Assembly (NCBI RefSeq): GCF_004217185.1 | Contig: NZ_SHKL01000001.1 | Span: 3,532,001 to 3,596,000 of the forward strand | From: Pseudonocardia sediminis | GTDB lineage: Bacteria > Actinomycetota > Actinomycetes > Mycobacteriales > Pseudonocardiaceae | Reading direction: 5' to 3' | Length of the DNA stretch: 64,000 bases | Shown: piece by piece, positions 32,048 through 42,662 of the stretch | Layout: each line of letters starts with the position of its first letter | How positions within the stretch are numbered: position 1 is the stretch's first letter | Position numbers and translations under genes: made by a program | Notes under the pieces: model-generated | The model's database searches: none | The model's input: only the letters and a program-made list of their open reading frames with translations | Told to the model about the DNA's origin: nothing

Positions 32048-32716
32048 TCAGTCGTCGTCGTGGGTGGAGGACAGCAGCTGGCCGTCGATCCACGAGTCCA
32101 GGGAGCGTTCCCGGCCCTGGTCGTCGGTCATGCGGCAGTCCCGGCCGACGATGTCGTCGGAGTCGGCGGACGGGCTCAGGCGGGGCAGGCCCGAAGCGTC
32201 GCACTCACCGGGCTCGGCCGGCTGCGAGGGCTCGGAGAACGTCGACGACGGGTCCTCGCCCTGCGCCTGCTGCTGCTCGAGAACCTGCTGGCGGCGGACC
32301 TGCTGGTCCTGGAACGCCTCGAGCTCCGCACGTCCCTGCTGCTGGACGACGGCGTCACGCTGGCGGGCGTCGGCCCGGACGTCCTCGACCAGGGCGCTCA
32401 CCGAGCGCTGGTCGCGGGCCTGGGCCAGCGCGTCCTGCTCCCGTGCGGCGTCGCTCGCAGCGGACACCGCCGACACGGCCTCCTCGGCCCGGCCCGGCAC
32501 CTCGGTGCGCACGCTCGGCACCGACGGCGTGGTCTCGGCCGCGGTGGGTGCCACGGCCTCGTCCGTCGTCGCACCGGCGTCAGCCGCCGGGGGCACGGCG
32601 GCCCCGCTGCTCAGAACCAGCCCGGTCGCCGCGCCCGCCGCGCCGAGGACGGGGACCGTTCCGGCCAGCGCGCGTGCGGTGATGCTCGGTCCACCCTGTC
32701 GATGGCGTCCGCTCAT
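32048..32716 (-). CDS. secreted or membrane-anchored protein, paralogue A of a tandem trio
   Basis: The protein has 222 aa from ATG 32716, with GGGAGG upstream. A basic start MSGRHRQGG leads into a hydrophobic segment (about residues 17-37), read as signal peptide or anchor. A Thr/Ala-rich stretch and a Gln/Glu-rich coiled coil (about 105-155, QDQQVRRQQVLEQQQAQ) follow. The C-terminal ~50 residues have two cysteines and DDQGRERSLDSWIDGQLLSS. That tail recurs in the next gene. No known family is recognised. Confidence 0.75.
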   Translation of the reverse strand: MSGRHRQGGPSITARALAGTVPVLGAAGAATGLVLSSGAAVPPAADAGATTDEAVAPTAAETTPSVPSVRTEVPGRAEEAVSAVSAASDAAREQDALAQARDQRSVSALVEDVRADARQRDAVVQQQGRAELEAFQDQQVRRQQVLEQQQAQGEDPSSTFSEPSQPAEPGECDASGLPRLSPSADSDDIVGRDCRMTDDQGRERSLDSWIDGQLLSSTHDDD

Positions 32717-32786
32717 GTGATCGCCTCCCGCCGTGATTGTGCCCCAACGGTGACGAGAACAAACACGCGCAGTGACTCCCCGTTGT

Positions 32787-33335
32787 CTACTCGCCGTAGG
32801 AGGACAGCAGCTGCCCGTCGATCCACGGGTCCAGCGAGCGCTCCCGGCCCTGGTCGTCGACGTAGCCGCAGTCGCGGTTCGTGATCCAGTTCGGGTGCTC
32901 CGGGTCGTCGAAACGGGGCGAGCCCTCGAGGTCGCACACGCCCGATCCGGCCTCGGATCCTGTCGCGGCGTCGTCGTCGCCCGTGTCCTCGCGTGCCGTG
33001 GTCTCCTGCTCGGCCTCCCGGCGGTCCTGCTCGGCCCGTGCGGACGCAGCGGTGACGGCCTCGCCCGCCGTGTCCGCGGCCGCGGAGGCGCCCGGCAGCG
33101 CCCGAAGAACCGACGGCGTCGCTGCCGCCGCCGCGACGACGGACGCGGGAGACGCGCCGCCGGGCGGTGCGGCGAGTGCGGCGATGTCCCGGGGGCCGGA
33201 GTCCACGCCGAGAGCCCCACCGCCGAGCACGACCGCCGCCGCCACTCCGGCCGCGGCCAGTACGGGGACCACCCCGGTCAGGACCCGGCGGCCGATCCCG
33301 GTCCGTGCCCTCTGTCGTCGGTGCCGTCCGGACAT
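32787..33335 (-). CDS. secreted or membrane-anchored protein, paralogue B of a tandem trio
   Basis: The protein has 182 aa from ATG 33335 (ATG 33341 also possible). It opens with MSGRHRRQRARTG, has a hydrophobic signal or anchor at about 20-40, an Ala-rich spacer and a short charged helix (ARAEQDRREAEQETTA). The C-terminal domain has two cysteines (GVCDLEG ... NRDCGYVDDQG) and RERSLDPWIDGQLLSSYGE, near-identical to paralogue A. The cysteines are probably disulfide-bonded outside the cell. The upstream region shares the GCCGAACAGA (plus-strand) motif with paralogue C. Confidence 0.75.
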   Translation of the reverse strand: MSGRHRRQRARTGIGRRVLTGVVPVLAAAGVAAAVVLGGGALGVDSGPRDIAALAAPPGGASPASVVAAAAATPSVLRALPGASAAADTAGEAVTAASARAEQDRREAEQETTAREDTGDDDAATGSEAGSGVCDLEGSPRFDDPEHPNWITNRDCGYVDDQGRERSLDPWIDGQLLSSYGE

Positions 33336-33472
33336 GGCCACCCGCCTTCTGCTCGTTCGCTACCCGGATCATCGCCGGGGAGCAGCGGTCGTGAGCCGAA
33401 CAGAGCACTTGTCACCTGGAATGATGACGGCCGGCACGACCAGCGCGGTATCGGCTGTCCGGGCGTATGCGG

Positions 33473-34087
33473 TCAGCCGCCGAGCAGGGAGCCCTCACCG
33501 AGGAGCGTGCCGTCGAGCAGGCCGTCGTCGCCGAGGAGGCCGGAGTCGTCGTCGGAGTCCTCGGTGGGCTCGGGGCTCGCCGACCGGGCCCGGAGATCGG
33601 GGGCCGTCGTCGGGGCGGGCGTACTGCGCGGGGTGACGGCCGAGGGGCGGGGTGCCGTCGTCGTCCGGGGAGCCACGCGCGGCGCCGGTGCCTCGGAGGT
33701 CTGCGGAGCGCGGGCCGCGGCCTCGGCCGACCGCGCAGCCGCCTCGGCGCGGGCGGCGGCGCGCTCCTCGGCCTGCGCACGGGCCTCGGCGGCGCGCTGC
33801 TCGTCGACCCGGCGGTCGACGGCCGTGGTGGCCGCGGACACCGCTCCCCCGGCCATGTCGGAGCTGCGGTGCACGGCGAACGGCGCGGCCGAGACGGCGA
33901 CGACGTTCGCGGCGAGGACCCGCTCCTGGGAGGGGAACGTCGGGATCGCGACCCCGGGCCCTCCGGCGGAGACGGTCGCGCTGCCCAGCACGACGGCGGT
34001 CGCAACGGCCGCAGCGCCGACGACCGGCACGGCGACGGCCAGCATCGTCCTGACCACGCTCGCGCGTGCCCGGTGCCGTCCGGCCAT
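33473..34087 (-). CDS. secreted or membrane-anchored protein, paralogue C of a tandem trio
   Basis: The protein has 204 aa. It shares the opening MAGRHRARASVVR, the hydrophobic segment (about 15-35) and an Ala/Glu/Arg coiled coil (about 90-125, RAAEARAQAEERAAARAEAA). It lacks the two-cysteine WIDGQLLSS tail of its neighbours and ends instead in Thr/Pro-rich linker plus GLL/GTLL/GSLL repeats. The ribosome-binding context GGGAGGCGATCACA is identical to that of paralogue A. It is probably exported; function unknown. Confidence 0.7.
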   Translation of the reverse strand: MAGRHRARASVVRTMLAVAVPVVGAAAVATAVVLGSATVSAGGPGVAIPTFPSQERVLAANVVAVSAAPFAVHRSSDMAGGAVSAATTAVDRRVDEQRAAEARAQAEERAAARAEAAARSAEAAARAPQTSEAPAPRVAPRTTTAPRPSAVTPRSTPAPTTAPDLRARSASPEPTEDSDDDSGLLGDDGLLDGTLLGEGSLLGG

Positions 34088-34362: not shown

Positions 34363-35340
34363 TCAGGACAGGGCCTCGTGCAGCGCGGCGAGACGACGGC
34401 GCCGGTCCGCGCGAATCCCGAGGGCCGTCTCCAGGTCGACCTCCACGAACCTCGTCCGGGTACGCGGCGCGGACTGCGCGACGACGTCGAGGTCACCGGA
34501 GATCACCGTCGCGACCATCATGTAGCCGCCGCCGGACACCGCGTCGCGGTGCAGCACGATCGGCTCCACCCCGCCCGGCACCTGGATCGAGCCGATCGGG
34601 TACGGCGCGTCCACGATGTTCGACGGGTCCTGCCCGGCCCCGAACGGCGGCTCCCGGTCGACGGTCTCCAGCTCGCCGCCGCCGTAGCGGAACCCCATCC
34701 GGTCCGCGACCGGCGTCAGCGTCCACGTCGTGTCCAGGAACGTGGCGCGGCCCTTGTCGGTCAGCCGGTGGTCGTAGAGCCCCATCACGACCCGCACCTC
34801 GACGTCCTTGGACAGCACCGGCCGCAGCTCGGAGGGCACCACGAGCCCGGCCCGCCCCGTGCCGCCGGAGCCGACCGGCAGCACGTCGCCCGCGGCGATC
34901 GGGCGCCCGTCCACCCCGCCGAGCGAGCCGATCACGTAGGTGGCTCGGCTACCCAGGTCGACGCGGGTGTCCAAGCCGCCGGACACGGCCAGGTAGGCCC
35001 GCGCGCCGTCGGTCAGGTAGGCGAAGTCGAGCACGTCGCCGTCGGCGACCTCGAAGGACTCCCACAGCGGCCGGTCCGACCCGTTGACCCGCGGCGCGAT
35101 CCCCGCGCCGGTCACCGCGACCACGGCCGGGCCGGTGAACGCCAGCTCCGGGCCCATGTAGACGATCTCGAGCGCGGCGTCGTCGGCGGCGTTGCCGACG
35201 AGGCCGTTCGCCGCGGCCAGCGAGTACTGGTCCAGCGCGCCCGAGGGCGGGATGCCCAGGTGGTAGTAGCCGGAACGGCCGCCGTCCTGGATCGTCGTGG
35301 ACAGGCCCGGCTTGCGGACCTCGATCGTCGTGGCGCTCAT
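34363..35340 (-). CDS. pxpC: 5-oxoprolinase subunit PxpC / KipA-like carboxyltransferase half
   Basis: The protein has 325 aa from ATG 35340. Typical PxpC/KipA features are IEVRKPGLSTTIQDGGRSGY at the N-terminus, GIPPSGALDQYSLAAANGLV, AYLAVSGGLDTRVDLGSRAT and ADRMGFRYGG. The family is homologous to the second half of the urea carboxylase carboxyltransferase domain. With PxpA and PxpB it forms the ATP-dependent bacterial 5-oxoprolinase. Its start overlaps the pxpB stop (ATGA). The linked biotin carboxylase and biotin carrier suggest a biotin-dependent version. Confidence 0.93.
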   Translation of the reverse strand: MSATTIEVRKPGLSTTIQDGGRSGYYHLGIPPSGALDQYSLAAANGLVGNAADDAALEIVYMGPELAFTGPAVVAVTGAGIAPRVNGSDRPLWESFEVADGDVLDFAYLTDGARAYLAVSGGLDTRVDLGSRATYVIGSLGGVDGRPIAAGDVLPVGSGGTGRAGLVVPSELRPVLSKDVEVRVVMGLYDHRLTDKGRATFLDTTWTLTPVADRMGFRYGGGELETVDREPPFGAGQDPSNIVDAPYPIGSIQVPGGVEPIVLHRDAVSGGGYMMVATVISGDLDVVAQSAPRTRTRFVEVDLETALGIRADRRRRLAALHEALS

Positions 35341-36209
35341 GCCAGGACCTCCAGCAGCCGCTTGTTGTAGCCGTCCGGGTCGTCCAGGAACGGCTGCAGG
35401 TCGAAGTCGACGTCCGGCGCGGTGATCCGGTACTGCCCCGCCTCGGCCTTCGCCTCCAGGTCGTCGTACTCGTCGCGGTCGATCGGCCGGAACTTGACCA
35501 TGTCGCCGGAGCGCATGAACACCTTGTGCTCGGTGAAGTCCGGCTTCGTCTGGCGCGGGTCGTAGATCGGGGCCGGGGTGATGCCGAACATCTGGTAGCC
35601 GCCGGCGCCGCGCACCGAGTAGATGCAGGAGAAGCAGCCGCCGTAGCCGACGGTCTGCTTCGGGGTGTCGGTCCGTGGGCGCACGTACTTCGGCACGATG
35701 ATCTGCCGCTCCCGGGGCACCATCTGGTACTTGAACGGGAGCCCGGCGACGAACCCGACCATCGAGGTGAACCACGGCGAGCCGGAGTGCGCGGCGATGA
35801 ACTCCTCGACGCTGCCGTAGCCGTTGATCCGGGCCGCGTACTCGATGTCGGTGGCGTCCGGGTCCTGGTGGCGGTCCCGGAAGCGCATCAGCGTCTCGGT
35901 GGTCCACGGGTCCTGGTAGAGCACCGGGATCTCGACGACCCGGCAGGGCAGGGTGACGCCGAGGGCATCGCCCACGCGGGTCTCGATGTCCTTGAGGTGG
36001 GCCAGCAGCGTGTGCGGCTCGAGGACGTCGGGGTCGTAACGGACCTGGTAGGACGCGTTCGCCGGACAGATCTCCAGGATCCCCTCCGGGCGCTCGTCGC
36101 GCAGCAGGCTGGTGATCGCGACGGCCTTGAAGTTGGCCTGCAGGCTCATCTCCTCGGCCAGCTCGACGAACACGAACTCGTCGCCGCCCCAGCTGTAGCG
36201 GGCACTCAT
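35337..36209 (-). CDS. pxpB: 5-oxoprolinase subunit PxpB / KipI-like carboxyltransferase half
   Basis: The protein has 290 aa from ATG 36209. It has the KipI/PxpB pattern: YSWGGDEFVFVELAEEMSLQ, VRYDPDVLEPHTLLAHL, LPCRVVEIPVLYQDPWT, FVAGLPFKYQMVP and GGCFSCIYSVRGAGGYQMFG. The FSCIYSVRGAGG segment departs from the GSVGIGGxQTG-type motif of short KipI proteins, and it is longer (290 against about 220 aa). This places it nearer to the urea-carboxylase-like branch. It is translationally coupled to accC upstream and pxpC downstream by 4-nt overlaps. Confidence 0.9.
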   Translation of the reverse strand: MSARYSWGGDEFVFVELAEEMSLQANFKAVAITSLLRDERPEGILEICPANASYQVRYDPDVLEPHTLLAHLKDIETRVGDALGVTLPCRVVEIPVLYQDPWTTETLMRFRDRHQDPDATDIEYAARINGYGSVEEFIAAHSGSPWFTSMVGFVAGLPFKYQMVPRERQIIVPKYVRPRTDTPKQTVGYGGCFSCIYSVRGAGGYQMFGITPAPIYDPRQTKPDFTEHKVFMRSGDMVKFRPIDRDEYDDLEAKAEAGQYRITAPDVDFDLQPFLDDPDGYNKRLLEVLA

Positions 36210-37561
36210 GCGTTCTCCCCTCGGGTAGCCAGCCACTGTTCCAACGTCCCGGTGTGGAAGTCCGCGGAGGCGAACCAGTCCTGGTCGAGCAGCTCGGCGA
36301 ACAGCCCGGCGGTGGTCGGGATGCCGGAGACGGAGAACTCGGCCAGTGCCCGCCGCGACCGTGCGATCGCCTCGGTCCGGTCCGAGCCCCAGACGATCAC
36401 CTTCGCCAGCAGCGAGTCGTAGTAGGGCGGGACCTTGCCGTCGGGCTCCAGCCAGGTGTCGCACCGCACCCACGGACCCGACGGCAGCGTCACCCGCCCG
36501 ACGTTCCCGGGCGAGGGCAGGAAGTCCTTCTCCGGGTCCTCGGCGCACACCCGGAACTCCAGCGCGTGCCCGCGCCGGACGATGTCGTCCTGGGCGAACC
36601 GCAGCGGCTCCCCGGCGGCGATGCGCAGCTGCTCGGCGACCAGGTCGACACCGGTGACCAGCTCGGTCGTCGGGTGCTCGACCTGGATCCGAGTGTTCAT
36701 CTCAATGAAGAAGAACTCTCCGGTCTCGTCGTCGACGAGGAACTCGACCGTCCCCGCGCTGCGGTAGCCGGCCTCGCGGCACAGCGAGACCGCCGCGGCG
36801 GTCATCGCGTCCCGGGTCTGCGCGGAGATCCCGGGCGATACGGCCTCCTCGACGACCTTCTGCCGTCGCCGCTGCAGCGAGCACTCCCGTTCGAACAGGT
36901 GCACCGCGTCGGTGCCGTCGCCGAGTACCTGCACCTCGACGTGCCGGGCGCGGGTGACGAAGCGCTCCAGGTACATCGTGCCGTCGCCGAACGCCTTCAA
37001 CGCCTCGTTCGACGCCTGCCCGAACGCCGTGCGCAGCGCCTCCGCGTCGTCGACGACGCGGATCCCCCGCCCACCGCCGCCGGCCGCGGCCTTGAGCATC
37101 ACCGGATAGCCGACGTCGTCGGCGGCGGCCACCGCGCCGTCGGCGTCGGCCACTCCCCCGGGTGTGCCCGGCACCGTCGGGACCCCGGCGGCGCGGGCGA
37201 CCTCGCGGGCCGCGACCTTGTCGCCCATCCGCTCGATCGTCGCCGCGTCCGGGCCGACGAACGTCAGCCCGGCGTCGGCGACCGCGGCCGCGAACGAGGC
37301 CCGCTCGGAGAGGAACCCGTACCCGGGATGGACGGCGTCGGCTCCGGTGTCCTTCGCCGCGGCCAGGATCGCGTCGGCGACCAGGTAGCTCTTCGACGCC
37401 GCCGACGGCCCGATCCCGACCGCGACGTCGGCCAGCCGGGTGTGCAGGGCGTCGGCGTCGGCCTCGCTGTGCACCGCGACCGTGGAGATGCCCAGGTCGC
37501 GGGCGGCTCGGATGATCCGGACGGCGATCTCGCCGCGGTTGGCGACGAGCAGGCGTCTCAT
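36206..37561 (-). CDS. accC: biotin carboxylase (ATP-grasp)
   Basis: The protein has 451 aa, the normal length of a stand-alone biotin carboxylase. It starts MRRLLVANRGEIAVRIIRAA, then has HPGYGFLSERASFA, the Gly-rich ATP loop KAAAGGGGRGIRVV, the ECSLQRRRQKVVEEA strand and EMNTRIQVEHPTTELVTG. It charges biotin on a carrier with CO2 using ATP. It is flanked by a mini carrier and PxpB/PxpC with 4-nt overlaps, so it probably serves this operon and not fatty-acid synthesis. Confidence 0.95.
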   Translation of the reverse strand: MRRLLVANRGEIAVRIIRAARDLGISTVAVHSEADADALHTRLADVAVGIGPSAASKSYLVADAILAAAKDTGADAVHPGYGFLSERASFAAAVADAGLTFVGPDAATIERMGDKVAAREVARAAGVPTVPGTPGGVADADGAVAAADDVGYPVMLKAAAGGGGRGIRVVDDAEALRTAFGQASNEALKAFGDGTMYLERFVTRARHVEVQVLGDGTDAVHLFERECSLQRRRQKVVEEAVSPGISAQTRDAMTAAAVSLCREAGYRSAGTVEFLVDDETGEFFFIEMNTRIQVEHPTTELVTGVDLVAEQLRIAAGEPLRFAQDDIVRRGHALEFRVCAEDPEKDFLPSPGNVGRVTLPSGPWVRCDTWLEPDGKVPPYYDSLLAKVIVWGSDRTEAIARSRRALAEFSVSGIPTTAGLFAELLDQDWFASADFHTGTLEQWLATRGENA

Positions 37562-37803
37562 CCGGTCTCCACCACCGCGACCGGCTGCCCGGCGTCGACC
37601 TCGGCCTCGTCGTCGACCAGGAACTCCACCAGCGTCCCCGCCGCTCCGGCCGGGATCTGGTGGAAGGACTTCATGACCTCGACGAGCCCGACGGACTGGT
37701 CCTCCGTCACCGTCGCACCGTCCTCGGCGAACGGCGGGCTACCGGGGTCGGGACGGCGGTAGAAGACGCCGGGGATCGGCGAGACGACCTCGTGACGCGG
37801 CAA
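37558..37803 (-). CDS. mini biotin carboxyl carrier protein
   Basis: The protein has 81 aa and consists only of the lipoyl/biotinyl domain: SPIPGVFYRRPDPGSPPFAE, then VGLVEVMKSFHQI with the biotinylated lysine in EVMK (near residue 45), and GQPVAVVE at the end. It lacks the Pro/Ala-rich N-terminal arm of AccB. Its stop overlaps the biotin carboxylase start. It would shuttle carboxybiotin from AccC to the PxpB/PxpC carboxyltransferase-like pair. Confidence 0.93.
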   Translation of the reverse strand: MPRHEVVSPIPGVFYRRPDPGSPPFAEDGATVTEDQSVGLVEVMKSFHQIPAGAAGTLVEFLVDDEAEVDAGQPVAVVETG

Positions 37804-37880
37804 CTGAAGGCTCCTTGCAGTGGGGAACGGGGCGGGTGGGGAACGGGGCGGGTGGGAAAGGGGTCAGGTGAGGTGCGGGG
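37804..37880. repeat. two short tandem duplications between pxpA and the biotin carrier gene
   Basis: The 77-bp gap is built largely of duplicated units. TGGGGAACGGGGCGGG occurs twice in a row next to the carrier gene. GGTCAGGTGAGGTGCGG occurs twice, with the second copy forming the 3' end of pxpA. The duplication therefore includes the pxpA stop region, which suggests slippage and could tune spacing or translation of the downstream gene. Confidence 0.75.
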
Positions 37881-38603
37881 TCAGGTGAGGTGCGGTGCGA
37901 GGGCGTCGTGCACGGCGCGGGCCAGCTCGACGGCGTTCGGGGTGTCGGAGTGGACGCAGACGCAGTCCGCCCGGACCGGCAGCTCCTTGCCGTTGACCGA
38001 GGTCGCCTTCCCCTCGGTGACGGCGCGGACCGCGCCCGCCGCCGAGGTCTGCGGGTCGAACGCCTCGTGCACCCGGGTGATGATCAGCGAGCCGTCGTCG
38101 CGATAGTCGAGGTCGGCGTAGTACTCCGAGATGAACCCGGCCCTCCGGTCGCCCCAGACCTTCTCGTGCACGGTGCCGGCCATGCCCATCAGCGGGGCGT
38201 CGAACACGTCGGCGGCGTCGGCCAGCGCGGCCGCCACCTCCTCGTCGCGCGCGGCCATCCCGTAGAGCGAGCCGTGCGCCTTGACGTGGTTGAGCTCCAT
38301 GCCCTCGGCGCGGAGGAACCCCGACAGCGCGCCGATCTGGTAGACGCAGGCGGCGGTCAACTCGTCGCGGTCGAGCTTCATCTCGCGCCGGCCGAACCCC
38401 TCCTTGTCCGGCAGCGACGGGTGCGCGCCGACCTTGACGCCGTGCGCCTTGGCCAGGCGCACGGTCTGGGTCATCACGCGCGGGTCCGAGGCGTGGAACC
38501 CGCACGCGACGTTGGCGACGGTCACGAACGGCATCAGCCCCTCGTCGTCGCCGCAGTGGTAGATGCCGAACGACTCGCCCATGTCGCAGTTGATGGCCAC
38601 CAT
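37881..38603 (-). CDS. pxpA: 5-oxoprolinase subunit PxpA (LamB/YcsF family)
   Basis: The protein has 240 aa from ATG 38603; the frame runs further upstream but MVAINCDMGESFG is the family start. Hallmarks are INCDMGESFGIYHCGDDEGL, NVACGFHASDPRVM, VGAHPSLPDKEGFGRREM and VKAHGSLYGMAA. PxpA supplies the metal-dependent hydrolase activity of the bacterial 5-oxoprolinase PxpABC. It follows the molybdenum hydroxylase gene by 62 nt and precedes the carrier gene. Confidence 0.95.
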   Translation of the reverse strand: MVAINCDMGESFGIYHCGDDEGLMPFVTVANVACGFHASDPRVMTQTVRLAKAHGVKVGAHPSLPDKEGFGRREMKLDRDELTAACVYQIGALSGFLRAEGMELNHVKAHGSLYGMAARDEEVAAALADAADVFDAPLMGMAGTVHEKVWGDRRAGFISEYYADLDYRDDGSLIITRVHEAFDPQTSAAGAVRAVTEGKATSVNGKELPVRADCVCVHSDTPNAVELARAVHDALAPHLT

Positions 38604-38665
38604 GAGGTCTCGTCCCCTTCCGATCGCGGGTTGGCAGGCAGTCTGGCGTGTCCGCCGGGTGCGTG

Positions 38666-41026
38666 TCAGCCGCCCGCCGCACGAATCGCCCGCCACACGG
38701 CCTCCGGGGTGGCGGGCATGTCCACGTGGGTCACCCCGAGGTGGGCGACGGCGTCGATCACCGCGTTGACCACCGCCGGCGACGAGCCGATCGCTCCGGA
38801 CTCGCCGATCCCCTTGACGCCCATCGGGTTCGTCGGTGACGGGGTGACCTGCTGGTCGAGCTCGAAGAACGGCAGGTCGGTCGCCGCGGGGATCGTGTAG
38901 GAGGCCAGCGTGCCCGCGGTCGGGTTGCCGTCGGCGTCGAACGTGGCCTGCTCGTAGAGCGCCTGCCCGATGCCCTGTGCGATGCCGCCGTGCAGCTGCC
39001 CCTCGACGATCGTCGGGTTCACGATGACCCCGCAGTCATCGACGGCGACGTAGCGGCGGATCCGGGTGAAGCCGGTCTCGGTGTCGACCTCGGTCACGCA
39101 GATGTGCGTGCCGAAGGGCCAGGTGAAGTTCGGCGGGTCGAACGCGTGGTCCGCGGTGAGGTTGGGCTCCATGCCCTCGGGCAGGTCCGCGGCCAGTGCC
39201 GCCGCGCCCGCGACCTCCTGGATCGTCACCCCCGGCCCGGACGTCCCGGTGACCGAGAACCGACCGCCGGTGAAGTCCAGGTCCTTCTCGTCGGCCTCCA
39301 GCAGGTGCGCGGCGATCGTCGTCGCCTTGGCCAGCACCTTTCCCGCGGCCAGGTGCACCGCCACCCCGCCGACCGGCAGGCTGCGCGAGCCGTAGGTGTC
39401 GCGGCCGAACGGGGCGACGAGGGTGTCGCCGTGCAGCACCTCGATGTCGTCGGGGTGCACGCCGAGCGAGTCCGCGACGATCTGCGACCAGGCGGTCTCG
39501 TGGCCCTGCCCGTGCGGCGACGTGCCGGTGACGACCTCGACCTTGCCGCTGGTGGTCATCCGGACCGTGGCCTGCTCCCAGCCGCCGGACTGCAGCCGCA
39601 CCCCGGCCGCGACCTTCGACGGCGACAGCCCGCCGGACTCGGTGAAGTTCCCGATCCCGATGCCGATCTGCACCGGGTCGCCCGAGTCGCGACGCCGCGC
39701 CTGCTCGTCGCGCAGCGCGTCGTAGTCGACGAGCTCCATCGCCCGGCGCATGCAGGCCTCGTAGTCGCCGGAGTCGTACTGGACCCCGGACGGCACGGTG
39801 CGCGGCTCCAGGAACCTCGGGTGCACATTGCGCAGGCGCAGCTGTGCGGGGTCCATCGCCAGCTCGCGGGCCAGGTCGTCCATGATCCGCTCGTGGGCGT
39901 AGGCGGCCTCGGAACGCCCGGCGCCGCGGTAGGCGTCGGTCGGGGTGAGGTTGGTGAACACGCCCTTGCACTCGAAGGAGTACGAGCCGAAGTCGTAGAG
40001 CCCGCAGTAGGTGAACGCACCGAACACGGCGATGCCCGGGGTGAGCAGCTGCAGGTAGGCGCCCATGTCGGCGAGCAGCTCCACCTTCATCCCGAGGATC
40101 TTCCCGTCCCGGGTCGCCGCCACCGCCATCCGCTGGACCTGCCCGCGGCCGTGCGTGGTGCCCTGGTGGTGCTCGGAGCGGGTCTCGGTCCACTTGACCG
40201 GCTTGCCGAGGCGCCGGGCCAGGACGAGCGCGAGCGCCTCCTCGGCGTAGACGTTGAGCTTCGCTCCGAACCCGCCGCCGACGTCCGGGGCGACGACGCG
40301 CAGCTTCGTGTCCGAGACCCCGCAGATCGCGGCCAGGATGTCGCGGACGAAGTGCGGCACCTGCGTGGAGGTGTAGACGGTGAACCCGCCGCCGACCGGG
40401 TCCGGCGTCACCACGACCGCGCGCGGCTCCATCGGAGACGGGATCACCCGCTGCTGCAGGTAACGCCCCCGTACGACGACGTCGGCCTCGGCGAACGCGG
40501 CGTCGACGTCGCCGGTGGCCAGCGGCCAGGTGTAGCAGTGGTTCGTGCCCAGCTCCTCGTGCGCGAGCGGGCTGCCGGGCTCCATCGCGGCCTCGATGTC
40601 CACCACGGCCGGCAGCGGCGTGTAGTCGACGTCGATCAGGTCGACGGCGTCGCGCGCGGCGTTGGCGTCGCGGGCCAGCACCACGGCGACCCCGTCGCCG
40701 ACGTGCGAGACCACCGCGGTGGCCAGCGGCATGTGGTCCGGGATCTTGATGTCCTCGGTCACCGGCCACCCGCAGGGGATGCCGGCGAGGAACTCGCCGG
40801 CCACGTCCTCACCGGTCAGCACGGCGACGACGCCCGGGTGCGCCTGCGCGGCCGACACGTCGATCCGGTCGATGCGTGCGTGCGGCAACGGGCTGCGCAG
40901 CACCGCCAGGTGCAGGGTCCCGGCGGGGGTGATGTCGTCGACCCACGTCCCCCGCCCGGTCAGCAGGGCCGGGTCCTCCTTGCGCAGCATGGACGTGCCG
41001 ACGTAACGCTCCGCGGTCTGGGTCAC
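38666..41026 (-). CDS. form II CoxL-like molybdenum hydroxylase large subunit
   Basis: The protein has 786 aa, the usual length of CO-dehydrogenase/xanthine-oxidase large subunits. Molybdopterin-binding segments include VGTSMLRKEDPALLTGRGTW, DVGGGFGAKLNVYAEEALA, GTSPHGQGHETAWSQI and GIGESGAIGSSPAVVNA. The active-site loop reads AYRGAGR, the form II signature, and not AYxCSFR of true CO dehydrogenase, so CO is an unlikely substrate. Hydroxylation beside nitrogen in a heterocycle or aldehyde oxidation is more likely. The FAD (CoxM) and 2Fe-2S (CoxS) subunits are absent nearby. First gene of the pxp operon, divergent from pucR. Confidence 0.9.
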   Translation of the reverse strand: MTQTAERYVGTSMLRKEDPALLTGRGTWVDDITPAGTLHLAVLRSPLPHARIDRIDVSAAQAHPGVVAVLTGEDVAGEFLAGIPCGWPVTEDIKIPDHMPLATAVVSHVGDGVAVVLARDANAARDAVDLIDVDYTPLPAVVDIEAAMEPGSPLAHEELGTNHCYTWPLATGDVDAAFAEADVVVRGRYLQQRVIPSPMEPRAVVVTPDPVGGGFTVYTSTQVPHFVRDILAAICGVSDTKLRVVAPDVGGGFGAKLNVYAEEALALVLARRLGKPVKWTETRSEHHQGTTHGRGQVQRMAVAATRDGKILGMKVELLADMGAYLQLLTPGIAVFGAFTYCGLYDFGSYSFECKGVFTNLTPTDAYRGAGRSEAAYAHERIMDDLARELAMDPAQLRLRNVHPRFLEPRTVPSGVQYDSGDYEACMRRAMELVDYDALRDEQARRRDSGDPVQIGIGIGNFTESGGLSPSKVAAGVRLQSGGWEQATVRMTTSGKVEVVTGTSPHGQGHETAWSQIVADSLGVHPDDIEVLHGDTLVAPFGRDTYGSRSLPVGGVAVHLAAGKVLAKATTIAAHLLEADEKDLDFTGGRFSVTGTSGPGVTIQEVAGAAALAADLPEGMEPNLTADHAFDPPNFTWPFGTHICVTEVDTETGFTRIRRYVAVDDCGVIVNPTIVEGQLHGGIAQGIGQALYEQATFDADGNPTAGTLASYTIPAATDLPFFELDQQVTPSPTNPMGVKGIGESGAIGSSPAVVNAVIDAVAHLGVTHVDMPATPEAVWRAIRAAGG

Positions 41027-41171
41027 CAGGTCTCATTTCCTTGCCGGGCGGATCAGTTGTGGCGACAGCGTGATCCAGCACACCGCCCAGCGGTAGTGTC
41101 CGGATCGTCGGTTTCGGGACGATGACATGGACGTTCCGTCCAGGTCCGGGCCGTCGGGACGGGGGAGCACG

Positions 41172-42662
41172 ATGCCGATCACGCTGCGGGACCTGGTGAC
41201 GGACCGCACCCTCGGACTCCGGTCCGTCTGTCCCTCCGCAGATCTGGATCGCGAGGTGGGGTGGGTGCACAGCAGCGAGCTGCCGGACCCCGCGCCCTAT
41301 CTGGACGGTGGCGAGCTGCTGCTCACCACCGGTCTCGGTCCCGACGCGGCCGGCCCGGCCCGCTACGTCGCGGGTCTGGCCCGGCACGGGCTGGTGGGGC
41401 TCGGGTTCGGCACCGGGCTGGGGCACGACGCGATCCCCGACGAGGTCGTCCGCGCCTGCGCCGGGCACGGTCTCGCGCTGCTGGAGATCCCCGAGCGGAC
41501 GCCGTTCATCGCCATCACCAAGGCGGTGTCGGCGTCACTGGCCGCGGACTCCTACGCCCAGGTCGTGCGCACCGACGAGGCCCAGCGCGCGCTGACCGCC
41601 GCCGCGCTCGGAAGGTCGGGCACCAGCCGGGTGTTGCGCGGCCTGGCCGGCCGCCTGGGTGCGTGGGTCCTGGTCTCCGACGCCGACGGGGCCGTCCGGC
41701 ACGCCGCCCCGCGCACGGCCGGGCGTCGCGCCGAGGCGCTGCTGCCCGAGATCGACCGGGTGCGGGCGCACCGCAACCCGACCAGCGTCACGGTGGCGGT
41801 GAACGGCGGGCAGGTGGTGCTGCAACCGATCCGGCTGCCCGGCTCGGGCGCGGTGCTCGTGGTCGGGCGGGACCGGGCGTTCTCGCCGGTGGACCGGCAG
41901 GTGATCGGGTCGGCGGTGTCGGTGCTGACGCTGCTGCACTCGCGCACGTCGGCGGTCGGGCGGGCCGAGCGACGGCTGCGGACCGCGCTGCTGCGGCTGA
42001 TGGTCGACGGTCCCGCCCAGGAGGCGCGGGAGATCGCCGGGGAGTTGTGGGGTCCGCTGCCCGGCGCCGGGGCCCGGGTCGTGGTGCTGCGCAGGCGGTC
42101 CGGCTCGACCCGCGAGCTGCTCGACGTCCTGGAGTCGGTGGCCGCGCGCTCCGGGCCGCTGTTCTTCGGCGCGCTGGACGACGTCGTCGTGGCCGTCGTC
42201 GCCGCCGACGCCGGGGAGCCGGTCACCGCACTGGCCGGGCCGCGCCCGGACGTGCGGGCGGGTGTCTCGGACCCGGTCGACGACATCGGTGTGGGCCTGC
42301 GCCAGGCCCGGCAGGCCCTCGACGCGGGGGCGCACCGGGGCAACCGGCTCGTCCGGTTCGGGGAGCTGGCCGGGGAGGGCCTGCGCAGCCTCGTCCCGGA
42401 CGCCGACGCCGCCGCGTTCGCGGAGTCCCTCCTGCGCCCGCTGGTCACCCACGACGCCCACGGCCGCGGTGACCTCGTCCGCTCGCTGCGCGAGTGGCTG
42501 GCCCACCACGGGCAGTGGGACCCCGCGGCGACCCGGCTCGGCGTGCACCGGCACACCCTGCGGGCGCGGATGGACAGGGTCGCCTCGCTCCTCGGACGCG
42601 ACCTCGACTCCCCCGGCGTGCGCTCCGAGCTGTGGTTCGCCCTGCAGGTCGACGCGACTTGA
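41172..42662 (+). CDS. PucR-family transcriptional regulator
   Basis: The protein has 496 aa from ATG 41172, 4 nt after GGGGGAG. The N-terminal PucR ligand domain (about 1-120) contains LGLRSVCPSADLDREVGWVH and GELLLTTGLG. A GAF-like middle follows, and the C-terminal HTH_30 region (about 435-490) reads LREWLAHHGQWDPAATRLGV then HRHTLRARMDRVASLLGRDL. Members usually control catabolic operons for purines, amino acids or other nitrogen compounds. It is divergent from coxL-pxpA-carrier-accC-pxpB-pxpC with a 145-bp shared promoter gap, so it is the probable regulator of that operon. Confidence 0.92.
   Translation: MPITLRDLVTDRTLGLRSVCPSADLDREVGWVHSSELPDPAPYLDGGELLLTTGLGPDAAGPARYVAGLARHGLVGLGFGTGLGHDAIPDEVVRACAGHGLALLEIPERTPFIAITKAVSASLAADSYAQVVRTDEAQRALTAAALGRSGTSRVLRGLAGRLGAWVLVSDADGAVRHAAPRTAGRRAEALLPEIDRVRAHRNPTSVTVAVNGGQVVLQPIRLPGSGAVLVVGRDRAFSPVDRQVIGSAVSVLTLLHSRTSAVGRAERRLRTALLRLMVDGPAQEAREIAGELWGPLPGAGARVVVLRRRSGSTRELLDVLESVAARSGPLFFGALDDVVVAVVAADAGEPVTALAGPRPDVRAGVSDPVDDIGVGLRQARQALDAGAHRGNRLVRFGELAGEGLRSLVPDADAAAFAESLLRPLVTHDAHGRGDLVRSLREWLAHHGQWDPAATRLGVHRHTLRARMDRVASLLGRDLDSPGVRSELWFALQVDAT

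Follow-up and report, generated by a model that had tools for sequence, protein, structure and literature searches.

A candidate biotin-dependent lactam hydrolase encoded by a split urea-carboxylase-like gene block in Pseudonocardia

Biotin-dependent carboxylation is known as a means of adding carbon, or of activating urea (and guanidine) before degradation. Urea carboxylase (TIGR02712; K. lactis structures 3VA7/5I8I) combines biotin carboxylase (BC), biotin carrier and two carboxyltransferase (CT) halves in one chain, carboxylates an amide nitrogen and is paired with allophanate hydrolase. The prokaryotic 5-oxoprolinase PxpABC (C. glutamicum) opens the lactam ring of its known substrate, 5-oxoproline, at the expense of adenosine triphosphate (ATP) (PMC13274462). 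The hydrolysis of caprolactam is also uphill, and caprolactamase CapAB, a biotin-free enzyme of the hydantoinase-oxoprolinase family, requires both ATP and bicarbonate; the intermediates proposed for it include a carboxylated lactim (PMC8453981). Here we analyze a 64-kb window (the whole stretch of DNA examined) from the 6.61-Mb genome of Pseudonocardia sediminis, which contains a block of genes for PxpA, biotin carrier, BC and two CT proteins. The block looks like an undescribed enzyme that would use biotin and CO2 to open small lactams.

The operon lies on the minus strand, between positions 41026 and 34363. A sequence-only reading of this DNA had placed six genes there, and Pfam and NCBIfam searches confirmed the family of each: a molybdenum hydroxylase, followed by the five genes of the block. 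As that reading had noted, the last four genes overlap by 4 nucleotides (nt) each, at 37561-37558 (carrier/BC), 36209-36206 (BC/CT1) and 35340-35337 (CT1/CT2), and 77 nt separate the PxpA gene from that of the carrier. The hydroxylase had been described as fused to the operon, but it is an adjacent, separate gene, 62 nt upstream of pxpA. A gene-context survey, as proposed in the same reading, bore out the co-occurrence of the five block genes: about 100 loci of the Actinomycetota, Alpha-, Beta- and Gammaproteobacteria and Myxococcota preserve the order PxpA-carrier-BC-CT1-CT2, far beyond chance, with PxpA in nearly every block whose locus is complete. Some Pseudonocardia and a second actinobacterial family (f30) carry the block genes in another order. 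Judged from its sequences, the block is likely to be a biotin-dependent lactam hydrolase, in which a split urea-carboxylase-like carboxylase works with a LamB/YcsF-type hydrolase, probably on 2-pyrrolidinone.

CT1 (36209-35337, 290 amino acids, CT_C_D) and CT2 (35340-34363, 325 amino acids, CT_A_B) are annotated as PxpB and PxpC, respectively. With the urea carboxylase model, CT1 reaches 125 bits and CT2 210; the scores with the Pxp models are 73.3 for CT1 (PxpB, TIGR00370, cut-off 145.55) and 180.2 for CT2 (PxpC, NF045499, cut-off 500), such that both Pxp models are missed; the best PDB match of CT2 is urea carboxylase 3VA7 (150 bits). Residue K174 of CT1, within a PKY motif, aligns with K1605 of the K. 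lactis urea amidolyase (KlUA), which probably serves as general base in carboxyl transfer and without which the enzyme is crippled (PMC5770610). This Lys is invariant across 32 block CT1s. Among 197 actinobacterial genomes sampled without selection, which gave 56 CT_C_D hits, Lys at this position is confined to urea carboxylases and to blocks that include biotin genes. With the other collected loci added, urea carboxylases and blocks again have Lys, as opposed to the Arg of canonical PxpB rows, including the second copy in the window's own genome; one urea-carboxylase-like row (L237) also carries Arg. The CT1 and CT2 trees separate a Lys side (urea carboxylases and blocks) from the Arg-type PxpB/PxpC. 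The window falls within a clade of 37 block rows (99* in the CT1 tree), and the true one-chain urea carboxylases form a clade of their own. The T. roseum operon may represent a separate assembly, since its CT1 is placed nearer to urea carboxylase. An AlphaFold model of CT1 (predicted local distance difference test 78.8, weak at residues 178-204) matches 3VA7 best (Z 19.4 over 267 residues), compared with a Z of about 13 over 190 residues for PxpB-type structures. A search for relatives of CT1 in viral contigs found none. The homology of the two proteins to the halves of the urea carboxylase CT domain, claimed in the sequence-only reading, is supported by the trees and, for CT1, by fold and K174; the names PxpB and PxpC are not, as the model cut-offs are missed. 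The window proteins are not 5-oxoprolinase subunits, and their names are inherited mislabels.

The remaining parts of a carboxylase are also present. The mini biotin carboxyl carrier (37803-37558, 81 amino acids; TTG start with aaggag upstream) contains an EVMKS biotin motif, and the MK of this motif is found in 121 of the 121 carriers collected. The BC (37561-36206, 451 amino acids) retains the ATP-grasp and bicarbonate-site motifs, as do most of the BCs examined. Together with the CT halves, their K174, trees and fold, these motifs support the earlier view of a complete, split urea-carboxylase-like set. A BioY biotin-transporter gene occurs at 11 block loci, and also in T. roseum. Unlike urea carboxylase, the set consists of four separate proteins (scores of the pieces against TIGR02712: 540, 210, 125 and 20, all below the cut-off of 1303.85).

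The following mechanism is proposed. BC would use bicarbonate and ATP to load CO2 onto the biotin of the carrier. CT1 and CT2, with K174 as general base, would then pass the carboxyl group on to the lactam at its ring nitrogen, forming an activated, imide-like N-carboxy-lactam. The block-type PxpA would hydrolyze the ring, and the resulting N-carboxy-amino acid would lose CO2, so that bicarbonate would be catalytic overall and ATP would pay for the uphill ring opening, as it does in PxpABC. Nitrogen carboxylation followed by opening by PxpA, which the sequence-only reading had put forward, draws support from the Lys, the trees, the structural match and the divergence of PxpA. By analogy with caprolactamase, an unrelated protein family, biotin would give the block a route to a comparable activated species. 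The omega-amino acid would finally be transaminated and oxidized; 2-pyrrolidinone would thereby yield gamma-aminobutyrate (GABA), succinate semialdehyde and succinate.

The substrate is probably a gamma- or delta-lactam, with 2-pyrrolidinone the likeliest and 2-piperidone next, as the catabolic genes that follow some blocks point to the product of the reaction. GABA transaminase (GABA-T; TIGR00700) and succinate semialdehyde dehydrogenase (SSADH; TIGR01780), both over cut-off, run on from the Variovorax block and also follow that of Enterovibrio. GABA-T over cut-off is additionally found at the loci of Rhodoferax, Grimontia, family f30 and metagenome-assembled genomes of Myxococcota and Hyphomicrobiales, and SSADH at an f30 locus. 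The caprolactamase alpha subunit CapA (NF050156), over cut-off, adjoins two alphaproteobacterial blocks, and CapA-like genes adjoin more. By tblastn, 14 of 115 block loci have GABA-T in the neighborhood, 6 have SSADH and 13 have a CapA-type gene, versus 0 of 67 non-block loci for all three; this contrast is indicative and no formal test, and it is weakened by near-relatives among the block loci and by controls that mostly span 13 kb, compared with up to 20 kb.

Other points also weigh against the proposed function. The DavT/DavD-type enzymes of 5-aminovalerate degradation belong to the same families as GABA-T and SSADH, so these neighbors would fit more than one length of lactam chain. Many block loci, those of the NCS1-permease group, have no GABA genes within reach. 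In one f30 genome (L256:18835-19791), an agmatinase over cut-off accompanies a sodium/solute symporter, GABA-T, SSADH and the block, which would equally fit the formation of GABA from guanidinobutyrate. Biotin genes beside PxpBC are by themselves no proof of mechanism, since an Arg-type biotin-associated PxpB cluster exists (L187-L191, L242). The hydroxylase of the window is without the usual flavin and iron-sulfur subunits nearby. We found no assay, mutant or expression data for the block.

The hydroxylase gene (41026-38666, 786 amino acids; MoCoBD_1/2 and Ald_Xan_dh_C domains, catalytic-type GIGESG motif) codes for a CoxL-like large subunit. Its assignment to form II was correct: the active-site motif is AYRGAGR instead of VAYRCSFR, and the score with CO dehydrogenase CoxL (TIGR02416) is 726, versus a cut-off of 991. 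A molybdenum hydroxylase precedes pxpA in 15 of the 22 other blocks from the genus Pseudonocardia. In family f30, to which the agmatinase locus described above belongs, orthologues (70-77% identical) are found next to the block, on the opposite side of pxpA; T. roseum has an independent CoxM-CoxS-CoxL set before its block. No CoxM or CoxS subunit was found in the window, nor a CoxS near any solo CoxL at the loci examined. A search for an orphan CoxM/CoxS pair that might serve the solo CoxL was also negative among the CoxS loci followed up, all but the two most divergent (L252 and L253). One open reading frame (L249:5850-7091, genome C1:2792634) joins CoxS and CoxG domains beside a BenE-type transporter, and neither CoxL nor CoxM is in the vicinity.

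Genomic association suggests that, in the window's lineage, the hydroxylase perhaps makes the lactam from a cyclic imine such as 1-pyrroline, derived from putrescine. This proposal draws on known chemistry, as an aldehyde-oxidase-type enzyme oxidizes the cyclic iminium ion of nicotine to the lactam cotinine. Alternatively, the block may act as proposed and the hydroxylase on another N-heterocycle or an unrelated aldehyde, an explanation that overlaps with ours and has a good chance of being right, if somewhat less than an even one. Form II CoxL proteins act on a wide range of substrates, CO, quinoline and hydroxypseudooxynicotine dehydrogenases are among the nearest homologues of solved structure, and a toluene-monooxygenase-like system occupies the same place in other lineages; against this, GABA-related genes or omega-aminotransferases accompany the orthologous CoxL at the locus in two lineages. 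The full scheme, that of an undescribed class of enzyme, is offered tentatively: CO2 on biotin would be placed on 2-pyrrolidinone, or a close lactam, at the ring nitrogen and lost after opening by PxpA, and in Pseudonocardia and the second actinobacterial family this would be coupled to conversion of 1-pyrroline to the lactam by a solo molybdenum hydroxylase, in a new branch of putrescine/GABA metabolism. The toluene-monooxygenase-like multicomponent system, named by eye from its sequence, lies upstream of pxpA in L067, L071, L078 and L086-L088 (Pseudonocardiaceae and one Streptomyces); several of these loci also contain a second Lys-type CT1/CT2 pair beside a PucR regulator.

PxpA (38603-37881, 240 amino acids; LamB_YcsF, 295 bits) bears on a further explanation, that the block is a biotin-dependent 5-oxoprolinase in which carboxylation merely replaces phosphorylation. 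The homology to the enzyme of known substrate speaks for this view (NF003814, 271.8 versus a cut-off of 226), and block and canonical PxpAs have in common D7, E10, H37, D40, K108, H110 and more. The LVPR...GA loop of canonical rows, mostly LVPRxxxGA, is absent from the window PxpA, where LIITRVHEAF is found; in the alignment, the loop of all block PxpAs, including that of T. roseum, is shorter and differs from the canonical one. This pattern is consistent with a retained hydrolase whose substrate or activated group has changed, and PxpA appears to have diverged together with the rest of the block. A loss of the substrate Arg at position 176 was considered and not upheld: the loop shifts register, which places an Arg one residue further along, and the difference in this region lies in the whole loop motif only. 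Elsewhere, the genome codes for canonical Arg-type PxpBC and for a canonical-loop PxpA, so the block is not needed as a 5-oxoprolinase, and the GABA-T, SSADH and CapA-type neighbors are unfit for a glutamate product. On this evidence a 5-oxoprolinase is unlikely.

Slightly less probable still is a split urea- or guanidine-type carboxylase, in which urea, guanidine or a ureido compound would be N-carboxylated and the product hydrolyzed by PxpA. The position of the CT halves on the urea carboxylase side of the trees fits this view, as do the NCS1 permeases (annotated as allantoin permeases) and agmatinase beside some blocks. However, a family search found no allophanate hydrolase among the operon genes, the homologue of a lactam hydrolase takes its place in nearly every complete block, and the one-chain urea carboxylases lie in a separate clade.

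The carrier scores 113 bits with NF005457 (cut-off 87) and the BC 693 with NF009471 (cut-off 686), and both pass the cut-offs of the PRK07051 / PRK12833 "acetyl-CoA carboxylase" families, a name unfit beside urea-carboxylase-type CT halves. That the pair serves acyl-CoA carboxylation (acetyl-CoA carboxylase) and stands beside a 5-oxoprolinase by accident is, these names and the title of PDB entry 9YX5 notwithstanding, very improbable, given an order kept across several phyla, overlapping genes, the urea-carboxylase features of CT1 and CT2, and a family search that found only CT_C_D and CT_A_B halves and no AccA/AccD-type CT in the operon. Nor is the pair the only one of its kind in the genome, a possibility raised beforehand as a test of the lactam reading and rejected here, as eight Biotin_carb_N genes are present. 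The 9YX5 title describes canonical-type M. smegmatis MSMEG_0435-0436 as bound to a complex of long-chain acyl-CoA carboxylase, a hint that canonical PxpBC, too, may touch biotin enzymes. The rule that a biotin gene beside PxpBC always signals Lys was also rejected. The second biotin-associated PxpBC cluster, found in Lactiplantibacillus and one actinobacterial family (L187-L191 of family f38; L242:3477-6987), has an Arg-type PxpB resembling the canonical one, a longer carrier and BC and, where PxpA was aligned, a canonical PxpA loop.

No description of biotin-dependent, PxpABC-type lactam opening was found in the open-access literature; an earlier mention may exist in subscription papers such as Niehaus 2017, reportedly the founding paper on PxpABC. 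If the proposal is true, biotin carboxylation would gain a new role, as a throw-away activating group for hydrolysis of an unreactive lactam, and the block would be a source of candidate enzymes for the degradation of pyrrolidone- and nylon-type lactams. Soil and marine bacteria commonly carry the block, wrongly filed as 5-oxoprolinase, acetyl-CoA carboxylase or allophanate hydrolase, so that annotation would change in many genomes. The Lys versus Arg distinction also provides a testable contrast for the mechanism of canonical PxpBC, which is still largely assumed.

Divergent from the operon, on the plus strand, a PucR-type gene (41127-42662; PF07905, PF13556) is its probable regulator. The N-terminal part resembles PmfR, and the protein scores 95 bits with NF045769, under the model cut-off. 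The PucR-type GabR activates gabTDP and controls the use of GABA in C. glutamicum (PMC7652997), which provides a weak further link to GABA. The uptake genes at the blocks vary, and include NCS1 permeases and TorT-type and polyamine-type ATP-binding cassette transporters. Just 3' of the operon, also on the minus strand (32048-34087), lie genes for three consecutive small, apparently paralogous proteins, each of which starts with M(S/A)GRHR and contains a membrane or secretion segment and an Ala/Pro-rich tail.

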